A stretch of DNA of 41,722 bases from Nitrosopumilaceae archaeon (GTDB taxonomy: Archaea; Thermoproteota; Nitrososphaeria; Nitrososphaerales; Nitrosopumilaceae). Numbering within the stretch: position 1 is the stretch's first letter; the number at the start of each line of letters is the position of its first letter. Under the pieces are notes generated by a model that searched no databases, had not been told where the DNA came from, and was given only the letters and a program-made list of their open reading frames with translations. Where the stretch lies: NCBI GenBank assembly GCA_900620265.3, contig UYNY03000040.1, positions 1-41,722 on the forward strand, given 5' to 3'. The translations under genes were made by a program, and so were the position numbers. This document shows, in pieces, positions 27,618 to 33,626 of the stretch.

Positions 27618-28279
27618 CACCTTGTCACGGTGTATATGTTGTTCTCAAAGCTGGCCGTCTTAAAGTCGAGCCTGTTCTCGTCGTGGTCGCCGCCGGACCT
27701 GCTTAGCGCCGAGAGCTCGGGGACGGCGTCGTCCCTGAACCCGACCGACGAGGCGTAGACCGCGTCGGCGAGCATGGTGCCGTGCTCGCCCTCCTTGATG
27801 TCGCGCACGGCCCTGTAGAACCTGGCCACGTCGCGCTTGTTGACCGGTGTGCCCGTCGCCTTGTTGGTGGCGACCGCCACGTACATGCCGCTGCTCTTGA
27901 CCGCCGTCTGCATCTTGTGGTTCTTGCCGGACCTGCCCGGGACGCTCTCGTTGACGAGCACCTGGCACTTGTGGAACATGCTGGAGACGTACGCGTAGAA
28001 CCTGTACTGGGCGTACTTGCCGGCCTCGTCCACCTGGCAGTCGACGAACACCTTGTGCAGCATGGCGAGCGCGTCGTCGTTCATGCTCTGGAGGCGGTCG
28101 TCTATGCGGCCGCGGTTTACCAGCTCCGAGTCGCAGTCCTTTGCGACCATCGCGAGCACAAAGTCCGGGAGGTTGTAGTTCTTGAGGGCGGTCACGGCCG
28201 CCCCGGACTGGGTGAGGCCGAACTTTGGGAACCCCTTGTTTACCACGCCCGCGGAAACGGGGGTTTGCTTATAATTCAT
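27614..28279 (-). CDS. Hypothetical soluble protein
   Basis: 221 residues from the ATG at 28279 (MNYKQTPVSAGVVNKGFPKF). No signal or membrane segment. Segments: TALKNYNLPDFVLAMVAKDC, LVNRGRIDDRLQSMNDDALA, AQYRFYAYVSSMFHKCQVLV, SSGMYVAVATNKATGTPVNK, VPELSALSRSGGDHDENRLD, ENNIYTVTRC. The last Cys is at the very C-terminus. Family not recognised; weak resemblance to nucleic-acid enzymes cannot be established by eye. Frame-wide codon bias matches native genes. Confidence 0.75.
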   Translation of the reverse strand: MNYKQTPVSAGVVNKGFPKFGLTQSGAAVTALKNYNLPDFVLAMVAKDCDSELVNRGRIDDRLQSMNDDALAMLHKVFVDCQVDEAGKYAQYRFYAYVSSMFHKCQVLVNESVPGRSGKNHKMQTAVKSSGMYVAVATNKATGTPVNKRDVARFYRAVRDIKEGEHGTMLADAVYASSVGFRDDAVPELSALSRSGGDHDENRLDFKTASFENNIYTVTRC

Positions 28280-28398
28280 CCGGCCCGCGCCCCCCGGTGG
28301 CCGCTTATGGGCGGGCCGCCCGGACCGCACTCCGGGGGCGGGCGCGGCGGCGCCCCCCGTACAAACGGGTTAAATGGGGAGTGCCGGATGCCCCCGGC

Positions 28399-28992
28399 AT
28401 GGCCCTGCAGCTGGAGGTGGACGAGGCGAGGCGGGACATGTACCTGCTGCTCCGGGCGACAGAGTTTGAGCGCGGCTCTGAAAGGATCACAAGGGCCGAG
28501 AGGATCCACGAGGCGCTGTTCGTCCTTTGGAGCCGCAGGGGGCTTGCGGCCGGCGACTTTGAGATCAAGAGGGACGGTTGCCGCAGCCCGTCGCTTGCGC
28601 ACGCGCTGGAGGAGGCGGTGCGGTCCGGCGAGGTCGTGCACGAGACAGACGCCGGCCTTGACACGTACTCGCTGACAGACAGCGGGATCGCCGCGGCAGG
28701 GGAGGCGTGGGACGCCGCCGGCATTGACGAGAGGGCCGATGCCTCCGAGGCAAAGTACGCGGTCAGCGGGATAAGCGGAAGGGAGCTGGCCTCGTTCCTG
28801 TACGCGGCGTTCCCAGAGGTGTGGAACGATCCGGCGGCCCGGGCAGAGGCGGCCCGGGGGGGATTTGACGCGGCGTGCTCGATGTACGACAAGGGCAAGA
28901 TAACGATCAGCAGGGCGGCGTCCATGGCCGGCATGGGGTACGAGGAGTTCATGAGGGCGTTCCAGGCTACCGGCAAGCCGTTATCCGGCTAG
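28399..28992 (+). CDS. Putative two-domain antitoxin (YwgA-like plus UPF0175-like)
   Basis: 197 residues from ATG 28399; a GGGTTAAATG box at 28369-28378 gives leaderless spacing. N-terminal half (about 12-105) has the YwgA/SocA-like pattern ITRAERIHEALFVL...SPSLAHALEEAVRSGEVVHE with a YSLTDSG end. A linker contains SGRELASFLYAAFPEVWND (126-144). The C-terminal 40 residues, SMYDKGKITISRAASMAGMG and YEEFMRAF, match the UPF0175 antitoxin pattern (YxxGKIxxxxAAxxAGxxxxEF). The next gene, 22 bases on, codes a PIN nuclease. The same architecture and order recurs at 29865-30967. A DNA-binding antitoxin role is inferred from domains and context. Confidence 0.75.
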   Translation: MALQLEVDEARRDMYLLLRATEFERGSERITRAERIHEALFVLWSRRGLAAGDFEIKRDGCRSPSLAHALEEAVRSGEVVHETDAGLDTYSLTDSGIAAAGEAWDAAGIDERADASEAKYAVSGISGRELASFLYAAFPEVWNDPAARAEAARGGFDAACSMYDKGKITISRAASMAGMGYEEFMRAFQATGKPLSG

Positions 28993-29014
28993 ATGATGGA
29001 AGATATCAAGATGG

Positions 29015-29530
29015 ATGCGTTTGATAATTCTGGTTGACGCCGATATTTGGATTTGCCCTTACGTGGCGGGATTGATCGGCGTAACGGGGGAAATCGTGGC
29101 GGTACTTGGACACAGGATCTGTATAACAGGCGGGGTGCTGGACGAGCTTGGAAGGAAGTATGACGGCGCATGCATAAGCGTGAAGAAGATGGCGGAGGCC
29201 GGGACGATCACCGTTGTCAAGGTCCCGTCCCGGTACTGCGGCAGGCGGATGATTTACAAGGATGCCGAGGACGAGCTGATCGCCGTGGCAACGTGCTCCG
29301 AGGCCGGCATGCGCGATCACTACCGGCTTGTTACAAACGACAAGGCCGCCCGGAAGAGATGCGATAGGAAGCAGATACCCTCGCTTGGAATACTCGGATT
29401 CCTCGTGTGGTGCCGCAAGAACGGCCTTCTTTCGCACGACGATCTGGCAGGCGGATATGACAGGATGGTGGAGGACGGCACGGTCTTCAAGACGACAAGG
29501 GACAGGTTTCTTGCAGGGATTGTAGACTAG
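29015..29530 (+). CDS. PIN-domain ribonuclease (VapC-like toxin)
   Basis: 171 residues. PIN pattern: IILVDADIWICPY with Asp8, ITGGVLDELGRKY with Glu44, YKDAEDELIAVATCSE with Asp83/Glu85/Asp86, and LVTNDKAARKRC with Asp109, which supply the acidic metal site. The end (SLGILGFLVWCRKNGLLSHD) is the usual last helix region. PIN toxins cleave RNA when freed from their antitoxin. Start at ATG 29015 because other nearby ATGs are out of frame. It follows the putative antitoxin by 22 bases and is probably cotranscribed. Confidence 0.85.
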   Translation: MRLIILVDADIWICPYVAGLIGVTGEIVAVLGHRICITGGVLDELGRKYDGACISVKKMAEAGTITVVKVPSRYCGRRMIYKDAEDELIAVATCSEAGMRDHYRLVTNDKAARKRCDRKQIPSLGILGFLVWCRKNGLLSHDDLAGGYDRMVEDGTVFKTTRDRFLAGIVD

Positions 29531-29644
29531 GCCGGTCCCCGTTTCCGGGCGGGCTAAATACGGGTGTGCCGGGACCCGCGGCACGTACGTGCGGCAGGGG
29601 GCGTCACACGTGCATGCCGTCCCCGGCGCGGGACGGACCCCCGG

Positions 29645-29812
29645 GGTTCTGTTGAAAATTCGTGAGCCGGTCCCGCCTGCCGTAGAATGCTCCCGGGCCG
29701 GCCGCCCGGAGCCCGGCCTGCAGGACGCGGGAGGGCGGATCGGACTGGCTGCAGGCCGGATCCCCCGGCGAGGTCTGCCTAGCCCGCGCCTCCGCGAATT
29801 TTCAGCAGAACC
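29645..29812. mobile_element. MITE-like element, 168 bp, 18-bp terminal inverted repeats
   Basis: Left end GGTTCTGTTGAAAATTCG (29645-29662) and right end CGAATTTTCAGCAGAACC (29795-29812) are inverted repeats matching 17 of 18. The interior is GC-rich with GGGCCGGCCGCCC-type palindromes and no credible gene. Its first 105 bases recur inverted at 31232-31336 with nine differences. It occupies the gap between the first and second toxin-antitoxin pairs (29531-29864); the rest of that gap holds the promoter of the next gene. No target-site duplication was recognised. Confidence 0.82.
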
Positions 29813-29834
29813 GTGACGCAAAAAGTATGGTTGG

Positions 29835-29859
29835 TATATATACACGGCCATACGGAGGT
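29835..29859 (+). promoter_or_regulatory. TATA box and Shine-Dalgarno-like site of the second module
   Basis: TATATATA at 29835-29842 begins 30 bases before the ATG at 29865, and GGAGGT at 29854-29859 lies 5 bases before it. Most genes in this window have the first signal without the second. Confidence 0.65.
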
Positions 29860-29864
29860 TTGAC

Positions 29865-30455
29865 ATGAACACAGTAGACCAAGGGACCACTTGCTTTGGA
29901 AAAGCCGGTAATGAGATCGGCATGGCCGTACTCAAACTGCTCGAGAAATACGAAAAGCCCATGAACAAGACCAGGATCCACAAGACATTCTTCATCATGA
30001 CAAAGGATATGACACGCCTTGCACCGGATTTTGACTTCAAGCCCGACGATTATGGCCCATTCAGCCAGGTCTTGGAATCCACGCTTCGTGGTCTGAAAAA
30101 TGATGGGCTTGTGTACTACAATGAAAAGTCCAAATATGCAAAGCCGGTCAGCCTTGAAACTGAGGGTAAAATCGTCTGTGATGAGGAAGGAAACAAATTA
30201 GACAAGGAAATAATCGAACGGTTTCCAGATTACATTGAGATATTTGAAGGATTGGAGCATGATGAAATGCTGGCATTTGTTGATTCTATGTTTCCAGAAA
30301 TGGCCGTAAATTCCAAAAAATTCAAAAACGAGATAGAGCCACATCTCCAAACGTTCATTGTAAACTTGATAAATAAAGAAAAAATAACCGTAGGTCGTGG
30401 TGCCCAACTGTTGAAAATACCATACAGTGAAATGAAGGACCATTTGAGAGAATAG
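29865..30455 (+). CDS. Putative two-domain antitoxin, second copy, AT-rich
   Basis: 196 residues. Matches the 28399 protein region by region: KPMNKTRIHKTFFIM and DDYGPFSQVLESTLRGLKND with GLVYYN (YwgA/SocA-like half, about 20-105); EHDEMLAFVDSMFPEMAVN (131-149); and NLINKEKITVGRGAQLLKIP with YSEMKDHL (UPF0175-like half, 167-194). Overall identity is low but the order, spacing and length are the same. Codons are strikingly AT-ending from about 30120 on, unlike the host, a sign of recent transfer. The stop TAG at 30453-30455 overlaps the reading frame of the following PIN protein. Confidence 0.78.
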   Translation: MNTVDQGTTCFGKAGNEIGMAVLKLLEKYEKPMNKTRIHKTFFIMTKDMTRLAPDFDFKPDDYGPFSQVLESTLRGLKNDGLVYYNEKSKYAKPVSLETEGKIVCDEEGNKLDKEIIERFPDYIEIFEGLEHDEMLAFVDSMFPEMAVNSKKFKNEIEPHLQTFIVNLINKEKITVGRGAQLLKIPYSEMKDHLRE

Positions 30456-30967
30456 GTGGTTGTCTGTATATTCTTGATTCATCATGCATAATAACAATAT
30501 TTGAAGAATCTGATTTTCCAGAACTTATGGATTTGATACTTAAATTGGATGATATTGGGGTGCCAGAATTATTAATCAGGGAAGAATTACAAAGCCACGG
30601 ACGTCAAACTATATCTGGAGAACGTATAGAACAATATGTTAATGATAATAAAGTAATATTGTTGAAGAACAGTCAGTGGGACATAATTCAGTTCATAAGT
30701 GAACTTCCTTATATTAAACAGACACAGTTTGGGCCCGGTGAAATTTATGTGATGTGCGCATACAAGTATAACAATACTGGTTTCGACGTTTGCTGTGTTA
30801 TTGATGAAGACAAGGCTACCAAATATTCAAAGGAGCAAGGATACGCCCATGTCAATACTGATTATTTGTTGAGGCGCCTTTTGGTTGAAGGACACGTTAA
30901 TAACCGGCAATTTGATAAAATACGCAGGAATATACGGAATAACCAATCAAATCAACGAAGACCATGA
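30452..30967 (+). CDS. PIN-domain VapC-like toxin, start codon unresolved
   Basis: The open frame runs from 30431 to 30967 and reads YILDSSCIITIFEESDFPEL, then VPELLIREEL, FGPGEIYVMCAYKY, CCVIDEDKATKYSKEQGYAH and NTDYLLRRLLVEG. These match the PIN motifs: first catalytic Asp at codon 30476-30478, Glu in REEL, and Asp in IDEDKA. The first ATG in frame (30527) would delete the first Asp, and there is no in-frame ATG, GTG or TTG before the motif. ATA at 30452-30454 overlaps the antitoxin TAG stop and would give 171 residues, the same as the other PIN protein. Alternatively a GTG at 30457 plus one extra base explains it, meaning a frameshift or inactive gene. Very AT-rich. Partner of the preceding gene. 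Confidence 0.7.
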   Translation: MGGCLYILDSSCIITIFEESDFPELMDLILKLDDIGVPELLIREELQSHGRQTISGERIEQYVNDNKVILLKNSQWDIIQFISELPYIKQTQFGPGEIYVMCAYKYNNTGFDVCCVIDEDKATKYSKEQGYAHVNTDYLLRRLLVEGHVNNRQFDKIRRNIRNNQSNQRRP

Positions 30968-31231
30968 TGTTGGGTATTATTGATAATGGGCGTAATATTG
31001 AACTTGATGATTTCAAACGATAAAGGGTACTCCGCAAGATGGGAAAGATTGACGGTGCAGGTGCAAGCCTCCGGCAGTGCCTCGCCATACCTGACTCTGG
31101 GTGTTTTTATGGGAAACGGCGTGCCGGTTTGTGGTGTAGGCTGGCTTGCGGAAGAGATTCCGGAATGGCGGAACCGCCCAGGGGCGGTACTCGTGCCCCC
31201 ATCCAACAGATCTCCGAGGTATCCGACCCGG
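30968..31231. other. Composition boundary, no gene recognised
   Basis: AT-rich to about 31060, then a sharp return to GC-rich sequence. Short open frames occur, including one reading VQVQASGSASPYLTLGVFMG and GVPVCGVGWLAEEIPEW, which could be a gene remnant, but no start signal, family or conserved motif supports a gene. It ends at the truncated repeat element. Confidence 0.5.
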
Positions 31232-31336
31232 GCCAGTCCGATCCGCCCGCCCGCGTCCTGCCGGCCGGGCTCCGGGCGGCCGGCCCGGGAACGGTCTGCG
31301 GCAGGCGGGGCCAGATCACGAATTTTCAACAGAACC
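31232..31336. mobile_element. Truncated inverted copy of the MITE-like element
   Basis: Reverse complement matches 29645-29749 at 96 of 105 positions without gaps. The outer end CGAATTTTCAACAGAACC (31319-31336) is an exact copy of the other element's left terminus inverted; the inner terminus is missing. The two copies face each other around the AT-rich toxin-antitoxin pair. The element ends 13 bases before the aconitase ATG. Confidence 0.85.
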
Positions 31337-31349
31337 GGGGCCGGCACCC

Positions 31350-33626
31350 ATGCAAATCTTAAAAGCGGCGCCCCCCGCCGCGCCCCCCGTGGAGATAGCT
31401 ACCACCCCGGGCATGGCAGAGGCAGTATACGGGAGGATCCGGGACAGGATTCCGGCGTTCCGCAGGCTCGCCGGCAGGCCCCTGACCCTCACCGAGAAGA
31501 TACTGGCAGGCCACATGGACGAGCCGTCCTCCCTGCCGCGCGGCGGCGCCGACTATGTCTCGCTGCATCCCGACCGCGTCGCGCTGCAGGATGTCACGGG
31601 CCAGACCGTCATGCTCCAGTTCATGCAGGCCGGGCTGGACCGGTCCCGCGTGCCGACCACCGTCCACTGCGACCACCTGATACGGGCGAGGGTCGACGGC
31701 GACACCGACATGAGGGACTCGCTTGACGAGAACAGCGAGGTGTTCAGGTTCCTCGAGTCCGCCTCTGCGAGCTTTGGGTGCGGGTTCTGGAGGCCGGGCG
31801 CCGGGATAATACACCAGGTGGTGCTGGAGAACTATGCGTTCCCCGGCGGGCTCATGATCGGGACCGACTCGCACACGCCCAACGCCGGCGGGCTCGGCAT
31901 GCTGGCAGTCGGGGTCGGCGGGATGGACGCGGCCGAGGTGATGGCCGGGCTCCCGTGGGAGCTCCTGTACCCGAGGAGGATCGGCGTCGAGCTCACGGGG
32001 TCGCTTGCCGGCTGGGCGGCGCCAAAGGACGTCATACTGCACGTGGCAGAGCAGCTGACAGTATCCGGCGGGACGAACCACATACTGGAGTACTTTGGGC
32101 CCGGCACAACGTCGATAAGCTGCACGGGCAAGGCTACCATCACCAACATGGGGGCCGAGATCGGCGCCACCTGCTCGATATTCCCGTACGACAAGAGGAT
32201 GGCCGCCTACCTGCGGCAGACGGGGCGCGCCGGCATCGCGGACCTTGCCGACGCGGCCGGCGGCCTGCTGGTGCCGGACCCCGGATCAGAGGCCGGCTAT
32301 GACAGGATAATACGCATAGACCTTGACAGGCTCGAGCCGCGCATAGCGGGCCCGCACACGCCGGACCTTGCAAGGCCGATATCGAGGCTCGCCTCGGACG
32401 CGGCCACGTCGGGGTACGAGGAGCGCATCTCGGCGGCGCTGGTGGGCAGCTGCACCAACTCGTCGTACGAGGACATGTCGCGCGCGGCCGACGTGGCGCG
32501 GCAGGCCGCCGCGCGCGGCGCCAGGGCCGCCTCGCCGCTGCTGGTGACGCCGGGATCCGAGCAGATACGCGGCACCATCGAGCGCGACGGGCAGATGGAG
32601 TCGCTAAAGTCGATCGGGGCGACCGTCCTTGCCAACGCGTGCGGCCCGTGCATCGGGCAGTGGAGCAGGCCCGAGCTTGCCGAGGACCAGGAGAACACGA
32701 TCGTGACGACCTTTAACAGGAACTTTCCGGGCAGGAACGACGGGCGGCGCAGCACGCTCAACTTTATCGGGAGCCCGGAGATGGTGACGGCGCTGGCGCT
32801 CGGCGGCAGCATATCGTTCAACCCCGTGACCGACGAGCTCGTGGGATCGGACGGCAAAAGGTTCAGGCTCGAGCCGCCGCGCCCGGCGCCGGAGGTGCCG
32901 CCGGGCGGCTTTGAGATCCCCGACGGCGTCTACGTGGACCCTCCGGAGGGCGGCGCCGAGGTGGTGATAAGCCCCGGCAGCGGCAGGCTGCAGAGGATAG
33001 AGCCGTTCCCGGCGTGGGACGGGCGGGACCTTGAGGGGATGCCGGTGCTGGCAAAGGCGCGCGGCAAGTGCACCACGGACCACATATCGCCGGCCGGCGC
33101 CTGGCTGTCCCTGCGGGGTCACCTTGACCGGCTCAGCGACAACATGCTGGCCGGCGCCGTCAACGCGCACACGGGCGGCGTCGGGACGGGGCGCGCGGAG
33201 CCGGGCTCGGAGCCCGAGGGGTTCTCGGTGATAGCCAGGAGGTACAAGGCGGACGGCACGAGGTGGGTGATAATAGGGGACGGCAACTATGGCGAGGGGA
33301 GCAGCCGCGAGCACGCGGCAATGTCGCCAAGGTACCTCGGGTGCGCCGCCGTCGTGGCGCGCAGCTTTGCGCGGATCCACGAGACGAACCTCAAAAAGCA
33401 GGGGATACTGGCGCTCACGTTCTCGGATCCGGCCGACTATGACATAATCGGCGAGCACGACCGGATATCGCTGGTGGGGCTCGAATCCCTTGCGCCCGGC
33501 GGCCCCGTCAGGTGCATGGTATCTGGCCCCGGCGGGGAGCGGGAGATCACCCTGGACCACTCGTACAACGAGGCGCAGCTGGGCTGGTTCAGGGCCGGCT
33601 CCGCCCTGAACGTGCTGAAGGGGTGA
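31350..33626 (+). CDS. acnA: Aconitate hydratase
   Basis: 758 residues. Interconverts citrate and isocitrate in the cytoplasm (oxidative TCA cycle segment). Iron-sulfur cluster ligands are in VGSCTNSSYED and ANACGPCIGQW (three Cys). TDSHTPNAGGLGMLAVGVGG, the substrate loop GEGSSREHAAMSPRYLGC and KARGKCTTDHISPAG are further signatures; the small domain is at the C-terminus. The frame is open upstream, but ATG 31350 precedes the conserved EIATTPGMAEAVYGRIRD start region. The AATTTT in the repeat-element terminus (31321-31326) sits about 29 bases before the ATG and is the only visible TATA-like sequence. Confidence 0.95.
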   Translation: MQILKAAPPAAPPVEIATTPGMAEAVYGRIRDRIPAFRRLAGRPLTLTEKILAGHMDEPSSLPRGGADYVSLHPDRVALQDVTGQTVMLQFMQAGLDRSRVPTTVHCDHLIRARVDGDTDMRDSLDENSEVFRFLESASASFGCGFWRPGAGIIHQVVLENYAFPGGLMIGTDSHTPNAGGLGMLAVGVGGMDAAEVMAGLPWELLYPRRIGVELTGSLAGWAAPKDVILHVAEQLTVSGGTNHILEYFGPGTTSISCTGKATITNMGAEIGATCSIFPYDKRMAAYLRQTGRAGIADLADAAGGLLVPDPGSEAGYDRIIRIDLDRLEPRIAGPHTPDLARPISRLASDAATSGYEERISAALVGSCTNSSYEDMSRAADVARQAAARGARAASPLLVTPGSEQIRGTIERDGQMESLKSIGATVLANACGPCIGQWSRPELAEDQENTIVTTFNRNFPGRNDGRRSTLNFIGSPEMVTALALGGSISFNPVTDELVGSDGKRFRLEPPRPAPEVPPGGFEIPDGVYVDPPEGGAEVVISPGSGRLQRIEPFPAWDGRDLEGMPVLAKARGKCTTDHISPAGAWLSLRGHLDRLSDNMLAGAVNAHTGGVGTGRAEPGSEPEGFSVIARRYKADGTRWVIIGDGNYGEGSSREHAAMSPRYLGCAAVVARSFARIHETNLKKQGILALTFSDPADYDIIGEHDRISLVGLESLAPGGPVRCMVSGPGGEREITLDHSYNEAQLGWFRAGSALNVLKG

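Follow-up and report, generated by a model that had tools for sequence, protein, structure and literature searches.

Two inverted IS6-like miniature elements beside the promoters around an AT-rich toxin–antitoxin module in a Nitrosopumilaceae archaeon

IS6-related non-autonomous miniature elements (MITEs) have been named MITEBth2 and MITEHarch3, and the source naming them gives the TIR consensus of IS6/IS26 as GGTTCTGTTGCAAA, which begins with GG (PMC6807381). In the pseudo-compound transposons of IS6, the flanking copies are described as standing in direct repeat, and inverted pairs are described as arising by replicative transposition within one molecule (PMC7986276). Two-MITE cassettes (PMC3934969) and mobile insertion cassettes (PMC3913671) are reported for bacteria, so that a bold reading of the locus described here, in which a module is carried between two such elements, has precedents. 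Among archaea, the count of insertion sequences given for Cenarchaeum symbiosum A is none (PMC6563490), and our literature searches retrieved no paper describing MITEs in Cenarchaeum-like archaea.

The window, meaning the whole stretch of 41,722 nucleotides analysed here, is an entire contig (C40) of a Nitrosopumilaceae genome of 1,996,680 bases in 113 contigs, which is 96% complete. It contains two miniature elements, denoted E1 and E2, together with the following features.

28280..31388, no strand: insert segment between divergent conserved genes, a 238-aa gene on the left and aconitase on the right
28396..29530, + strand: first module, G+C 62%, UPF0175-like antitoxin and PIN-like protein; precedes E1 within the same 3.1-kb insert
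29645..29812, + strand: E1, complete miniature element of 168 bp whose inverted ends are 18 bp long; a full-length diverged relative lies on contig C90
29645..29662, + strand: E1 left end, GGTTCTGTTGAAAATTCG (+TGA); 13/14 to the IS6/IS26 TIR consensus, 20/21 to an end in a congener (G534)
29795..29812, − strand: E1 right end; differs from the left end at one position and lies 52 bp upstream of the antitoxin ATG
29835..29842, + strand: antitoxin TATA-like box TATATATA, 22 bp beyond the E1 right end
29865..30455, + strand: antitoxin-like gene (196 aa) of the second module, with a DarG C-terminal-like region
30464..30967, + strand: PIN-like toxin gene of the second module, with an acidic D...E...GxGE...D pattern common to homologues
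31207..31336, − strand: E2, truncated E1 copy in inverted orientation, inner end lost; 96/105 without gaps, and with gaps the match reaches about E1 position 130
31319..31336, − strand: E2 outer end, same 18-mer as the E1 left end; the TATA-like box of aconitase follows after 21 bp
31358..31365, + strand: aconitase TATA-like box CTTAAAAG, intact despite E2, 21 bp off

The region between the 238-aa gene and aconitase is an insert, because these genes are divergent neighbours only 62–139 bp apart in 31 of 32 distinct genomes, as against 3109 bp in the window. This comparison comprised 29 of 84 other genomes, each with an aconitase match, and five hand-chosen regions, of which G019 was dropped (both genes were not reached) and G519 was already in the sample. 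The exception, G025, has the two genes 678 bp apart and carries no E1-type end at that locus at up to five mismatches. The first-pass annotation suggested looking for empty sites; what the relatives lack is a segment of 3.1 kb rather than E1–E2 alone: its left edge lies approximately 1.3 kb left of E1, so that the first PIN-like module is included as well as the AT-rich island (a coarse comparison, aconitase being only about 73% alike even in the nearest relatives). The same annotation described the elements as enclosing the second module and a sharp AT-rich island, and this was confirmed by a G+C content of 38.8% between E1 and E2 against 64.5% for the window, with the island edges coinciding well with the two elements. 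E1 and E2 themselves have a G+C content of 70–72%, and together with the relative on C90 of the same genome, this suggests that the MITEs are native to the lineage and that the module came from outside. No RNA family was detected at 28000–32000.

The structure of both elements agreed with the first reading, which had recorded a complete 168-bp element with 18-bp inverted ends, a 105-bp copy in opposite orientation with 96 matches, and identical inverted outer 18-mers. The ends of E1 (29645–29662 and 29795–29812) are complementary at 17 of 18 positions, and the inverted pair 29645–29749/31232–31336 is 91% complementary over 105 nt (96/105). When gaps were allowed, the match extended to E1 position 127 of 168 with 87% identity (31211–31336). 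The outer 18-mers of E1 and E2 are identical, and the 18-mer was found three times in the window at ≤3 mismatches, a number never reached in 100 shuffles (mean 0.04). The inner end of E2 is unrecognisable, its best candidate being equalled by 118 of 500 shuffles. The single-strand folding of E1 was far better than that of shuffled sequences (z −5.2).

The MITE-like nature proposed from the window was supported by defined ends and further copies elsewhere in the genome. The E1 end gave 7 matches in the own genome at ≤2 mismatches and 17 at ≤3 mismatches, while the reversed-pattern control gave 0 in both cases; a degenerate form of the end gave 28 matches at ≤2 mismatches (control, 2). Several of these ends pair inversely over spans of 85–509 bp, and about ten further mini-elements with inverted ends were recognised. 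The element is hence not confined to the window, since a 167-bp full-length relative of E1 with both ends present lies at C90:4989–5155, though it is only 72% alike. This relative was found by the end pattern and missed by a plain DNA search with E1, for which E1 and E2 were the only real matches in the own genome and which gave 0 matches in 60 relatives. A 22-bp match on C43 (E 1.5e-4) was rejected, as it lacks ends and lies inside an open reading frame. Across the phylum, the 18-mer at ≤1 mismatch was found in 5 other genomes of 398, with one match apiece; four were taken as unrelated, lying in gene-dense DNA with no close inverted partner, and so was the fifth (L042), which has a weaker second match 140 bp off on the same strand. 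E1 is thus a transposase-less element of 168 bp with ends matching at 17/18 and with E2 and the C90 element as relatives, and its copy number is low.

Other miniature elements of this genome carry genes. Homologous inverted-ended elements at C61:22860–23368, C108:4637–4971, and C61:6797–7125 each hold a TATA-like box and a tRNA-like gene, of which the first scored 48 bits and the second 40 bits against the Rfam tRNA model, with none listed for the third; two of the three have 9-bp duplications. Inspection by eye indicated that, in these elements, their own anticodon-arm sequence is duplicated upstream of the tRNA, and that both copies co-vary between the three. Direct pairs of mini-elements with exact 9-bp outer duplications surround tRNA-Leu(CAG) at C36:13952–14712 and tRNA-Ile(GAT) at C87:1339–1939, both called by ARAGORN and not in the Rfam listing; these tRNA genes have apparently moved as composite units. 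Another direct pair, consisting of 132-bp mini-elements at C90:7019–7850, surrounds two small ORFs that by eye resemble a toxin–antitoxin pair, and has no target duplication. A 387-bp inverted-ended element at C47:2650–3036 contains one small ORF (~78 aa) with its own TATA-like box, whose product is possibly membrane-bound.

The E1 end matches 13 of the 14 bases of the IS6/IS26 consensus. In the congener G534, an end on C12, GGTTCTGTTGCAAATTCGTGATATGG, adjoins an IS6-like transposase gene and agrees with E1 at 20/21 and with E2 at 24/26 positions. The partner transposases of this congener matched NF033587 with E-values of 4e-30 and 2e-31, at 105 and 109 bits that stay below the NCBIfam cut-off of 125, and matched PF13610 at 38.8–44.1, above the cut-off of 27; they possess an N-terminal zinc-binding-like region. 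G534 C110 (L123 1491–5345) further holds a 3855-bp transposon that is bounded by two identical 26-bp ends in inverted orientation and has an exact 8-bp duplication; its cargo is an IS6-like transposase gene together with one for an HNH-domain DNA methylase. A transposase beside nearly the same ends, of the kind that the first-pass annotation proposed to seek, therefore exists in a congener, and none was found in the own genome by family or congener-protein search (best E 0.116). Movement would consequently need a transposase in trans, as had been anticipated, and the assignment of E1 and E2 to a trans-dependent MITE of IS6-like type is well supported. PF13610 is present in 70 of 250 family genomes, and in 30 such loci E1-type ends at ≤4 mismatches nowhere formed an inverted pair; the matching loci were reached via the end pattern. 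Among named genomes, a collection that may exclude the own genome, two contigs of RHO2_bin_25 carry the exact 21-base end; it also stands at the terminus of one contig binned as Hyphomicrobiaceae (the binning is taken as given) and there delimits a 136-bp mini-element. No viral contig contained it.

Target duplications were searched for at each element. The outer flanks of E1–E2 matched at 4/9 and 4/8, E1 alone at 3/9, and the C90 relative of E1 at 2/9, indicating no duplication at any of them; decay or replicative routes could have removed it. Four units in the own genome have 9-bp duplications, namely C108 and the C36 and C87 pairs (9/9 each) and C61-329 (8/9), and none was found at the single elements C90, C47, C61-509, C89, C72, and C80 or at the second C90 pair. 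The duplication length was 8/8 at the G534 transposon and 9 bp in related elements of the own genome and of G460. The copies of the C36, C87, and second C90 pairs are in direct repeat, whereas E1–E2 are inverted. The inverted target copy that the intramolecular route would leave beside E1 was not seen (2/9, counted by hand), and the alternative place for it falls at the lost inner end of E2. No second E1-module-E2 unit was found among the own-genome paralogues.

Both elements stand close to promoters. An outward TATA-like box lies within 50 bp of 7 of 25 element flanks, compared with 2.0% of random 50-mers of the own genome, an enrichment that is an upper bound and overstated for intergenic elements because the background includes coding DNA. 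Five of these seven ends belong to own-genome elements other than E1 and E2. A comparable position was observed for related antitoxin genes, 7 of 22 of which have an end at ≤4 mismatches within 330 bp upstream (the window itself, five in G460, and one in G458), a count in which the window is included and most genes come from a single genome, G460. Controls gave 0/22 for the reversed pattern and 9 matches in 140,260 bp elsewhere in the same loci. End and ATG are separated by 52 bp both in the window and at the own C25 paralogue (a 5-mismatch end), by 39–50 bp at the five G460 genes, and by 49–163 bp at the G458 gene, which has several possible ATGs. In this comparison of 15 genes including the window, an end is located 39–52 bp before the ATG in 7 of the 14 other antitoxins, if the C25 and G458 ends are counted. 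One antitoxin with such an upstream MITE end belongs to another genus. Seven other own-genome paralogue places have no end, even at 5 mismatches. C25 is the closest antitoxin paralogue (45%); upstream of it, no MITE body in the E1 orientation was detected (score 27 vs a shuffle maximum of 41), and in reverse orientation the scores were 44 vs 41 for shuffles at C25 and 58 vs 44 at C47. Complete MITEs of ~212–221 bp precede three of the six antitoxins in G460. Two of its loci, C308 and C44, share a promoter region, and only C308 has a 221-bp MITE, with an 8/9 nine-base duplication; this represents a filled and an empty site, indicating that the MITE was inserted beside the promoter of an existing module. 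At C202 and C304 of the same genome, MITE and module are common to both as paralogous copies.

Both modules at 28396–30967 share one layout, in which an antitoxin with a UPF0175-like tail is followed by a PIN-like protein; the tail was recognised by Pfam in the first module and by eye only in the second, and one module has a host-like G+C content while the other is AT-rich. The antitoxin of the first module matched PF03683 with an E-value of 3.1e-5, which is below the cut-off, and its PIN-like protein matched PADLOC PDC-S70 at 6.6e-7. For the antitoxin of the second module, scores of 1.4e-7 (NCBIfam DarG C-terminal-like), 2.3e-11 (PADLOC DarG), and 5.1e-12 (PDC-M19A) were obtained. Its relatives occur in 9 of 400 genomes of the order, a count to which the own genome belongs; this genome contributes 8 matches and G460 another 6, and none was found in named genomes or viral contigs. 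For the PIN-like protein itself, Pfam, PDB, and PADLOC gave no match, and one of its homologues matches DUF3368 at an E-value of 0.058 only. Single-sequence models of the two proteins gave mean pLDDT values of 40 and 34, too poor for structure searching. The PIN-like gene starts with CTG in the window (30464), with TTG in four other genomes, and with ATG in the own C47 and C113; because of this CTG start, the window toxin may be weakly made or dead. In the own C25 paralogue, the PIN-like gene is broken.

Our leaning, held with moderate confidence, is that E1 and E2 are promoter-proximal MITE insertions, or that one is an inverted replicative copy of the other, beside an acquired module and with no working cassette. 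Promoter-proximal insertion would account for both elements without a cassette. This reading is favoured by the outer flanks (4/9) and the inverted rather than direct orientation, and also by the 21–22-bp spacing to the TATA-like boxes, the G+C contrast, and the MITE ends before related antitoxins. It is weakened by the state of the ends, since the outer 18-mers are perfect, the E1 inner end has one change, and the E2 inner end is lost; use of the outer ends would favour such a pattern. It is weakened further by the exact 9-bp outer duplications of C36 and C87, from which pairs can evidently move as units in this genome, by the fit of the island edges to E1 and E2, and by the fact that E1 alone also lacks a duplication (3/9). 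The composite cassette of the first-pass annotation would be a transposase-less "mobile insertion cassette" of 1692 bp formed by E1, module, and E2, on whose identical outer ends an IS6-like transposase would act in trans. In its favour are the identical inverted outer 18-mers, the coincidence of the island with the bracket, the C36 and C87 pairs with their tRNA genes and exact 9-bp outer duplications, and the congener transposon that carries cargo between identical inverted ends with an exact duplication. We nonetheless consider it rather unlikely and do not uphold it, since no duplication is present at 29645/31336, the pair is inverted and E2 truncated, the relatives lack 3.1 kb starting left of E1, and the G+C content of E1 and E2 is unlike that of the module.

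Less probable still is a one-sided unit, in which the antitoxin family travels with, or is controlled via, a MITE approximately 50 bp before its start, and E2 is uninvolved. The ends upstream of 7/22 antitoxins against 0/22 in the control, the identical 52-bp distances in the window and at C25 with 39–50 bp in G460, and the paralogous MITE-module copies at C202 and C304 are consistent with it, but five of the seven belong to the single genome G460, seven own-genome paralogue places have no end at 5 mismatches, at C25 the end carries 5 mismatches and no MITE body could be aligned in the E1 orientation, and the MITE of G460 C308 arrived after its module. A chance inverted repeat or an assembly artefact might be imagined for a genome in 113 contigs, where repeats can be misassembled, but is very improbable given a 105-bp match of 91% with defined ends, the C90 relative with both ends, and the same ends adjoining a transposase in another assembly; with 9 differences over 105 positions, E1 and E2 are not a single copy assembled twice.

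On the promoter-proximal reading, the following course of events can be postulated. E1 and E2 are copies of the same MITE, which derives from an archaeal IS6-like insertion sequence and would once have been mobilised by a trans-supplied transposase, of which none was found in the own genome. The AT-rich antitoxin/PIN-like module would have been acquired between two divergent housekeeping genes, and resident MITEs of this G+C-rich lineage would have come to lie immediately before the promoters of the antitoxin (E1) and of aconitase (E2), either as independent arrivals or with one as an inverted copy made by replicative transposition within the chromosome. The identity of the elements and of their ends, the further copies, the lack of a transposase in a genome 96% complete, the lack of the insert in relatives, and the placement near promoters are established by the data; we infer that the two elements arrived independently and that the bracket reflects where such elements insert and is not a working cassette.

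An inverted MITE pair around an island is accordingly not by itself a transposon. If such elements do move passengers in trans, they would offer a route for small stabilisation or defence modules into archaea that are seemingly free of insertion sequences, and the promoter-upstream placement together with tRNA units having clean 9-bp duplications makes target choice and cargo capture testable. It is conceivable, though in our estimation doubtful, that one group of IS6-like miniature ends in sponge-associated and related thaumarchaea constitutes a cassette system mobilised in trans in genomes that have no transposase of their own, in which these ends, alone or paired, carry antitoxin/PIN modules and tRNA-gene units to places closely upstream of promoters.

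Compared with the known systems, the E1–E2 pair resembles the reported product of IS6 intramolecular replicative transposition in being an inverted bracketing pair without ordinary flanking direct repeats (PMC7986276), and differs from it in that the inverted target copy is not seen beside E1 (2/9 by hand). The mobile insertion cassettes MIC231 of Bacillus cereus and the qnrD mic are alike in their inverted ends, passengers, lack of a transposase, and dependence in trans (PMC3913671); as described there, they usually have a target duplication, which E1–E2 lack. Acinetobacter integrons flanked by 439-bp MITEs and carrying blaPER-1 similarly place two MITE copies around passengers, with a 5-bp duplication in the reported case (PMC3934969), whereas the pair described here is inverted, has one truncated member, and has no duplication. 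From the IS6/IS26 family itself, the elements differ in that no transposase was found in the own genome and E1/E2 have no duplication, that some related mini-elements show 9-bp instead of the typical 8-bp duplications, and that the partner transposases fall below the NCBIfam IS6 cut-off and bear the N-terminal zinc-binding-like region. They share with that family a TIR matching at 13/14; in a congener, near-identical ends lie beside IS6-like PF13610 transposases, and one transposon there carries the 8-bp duplication typical of IS6.
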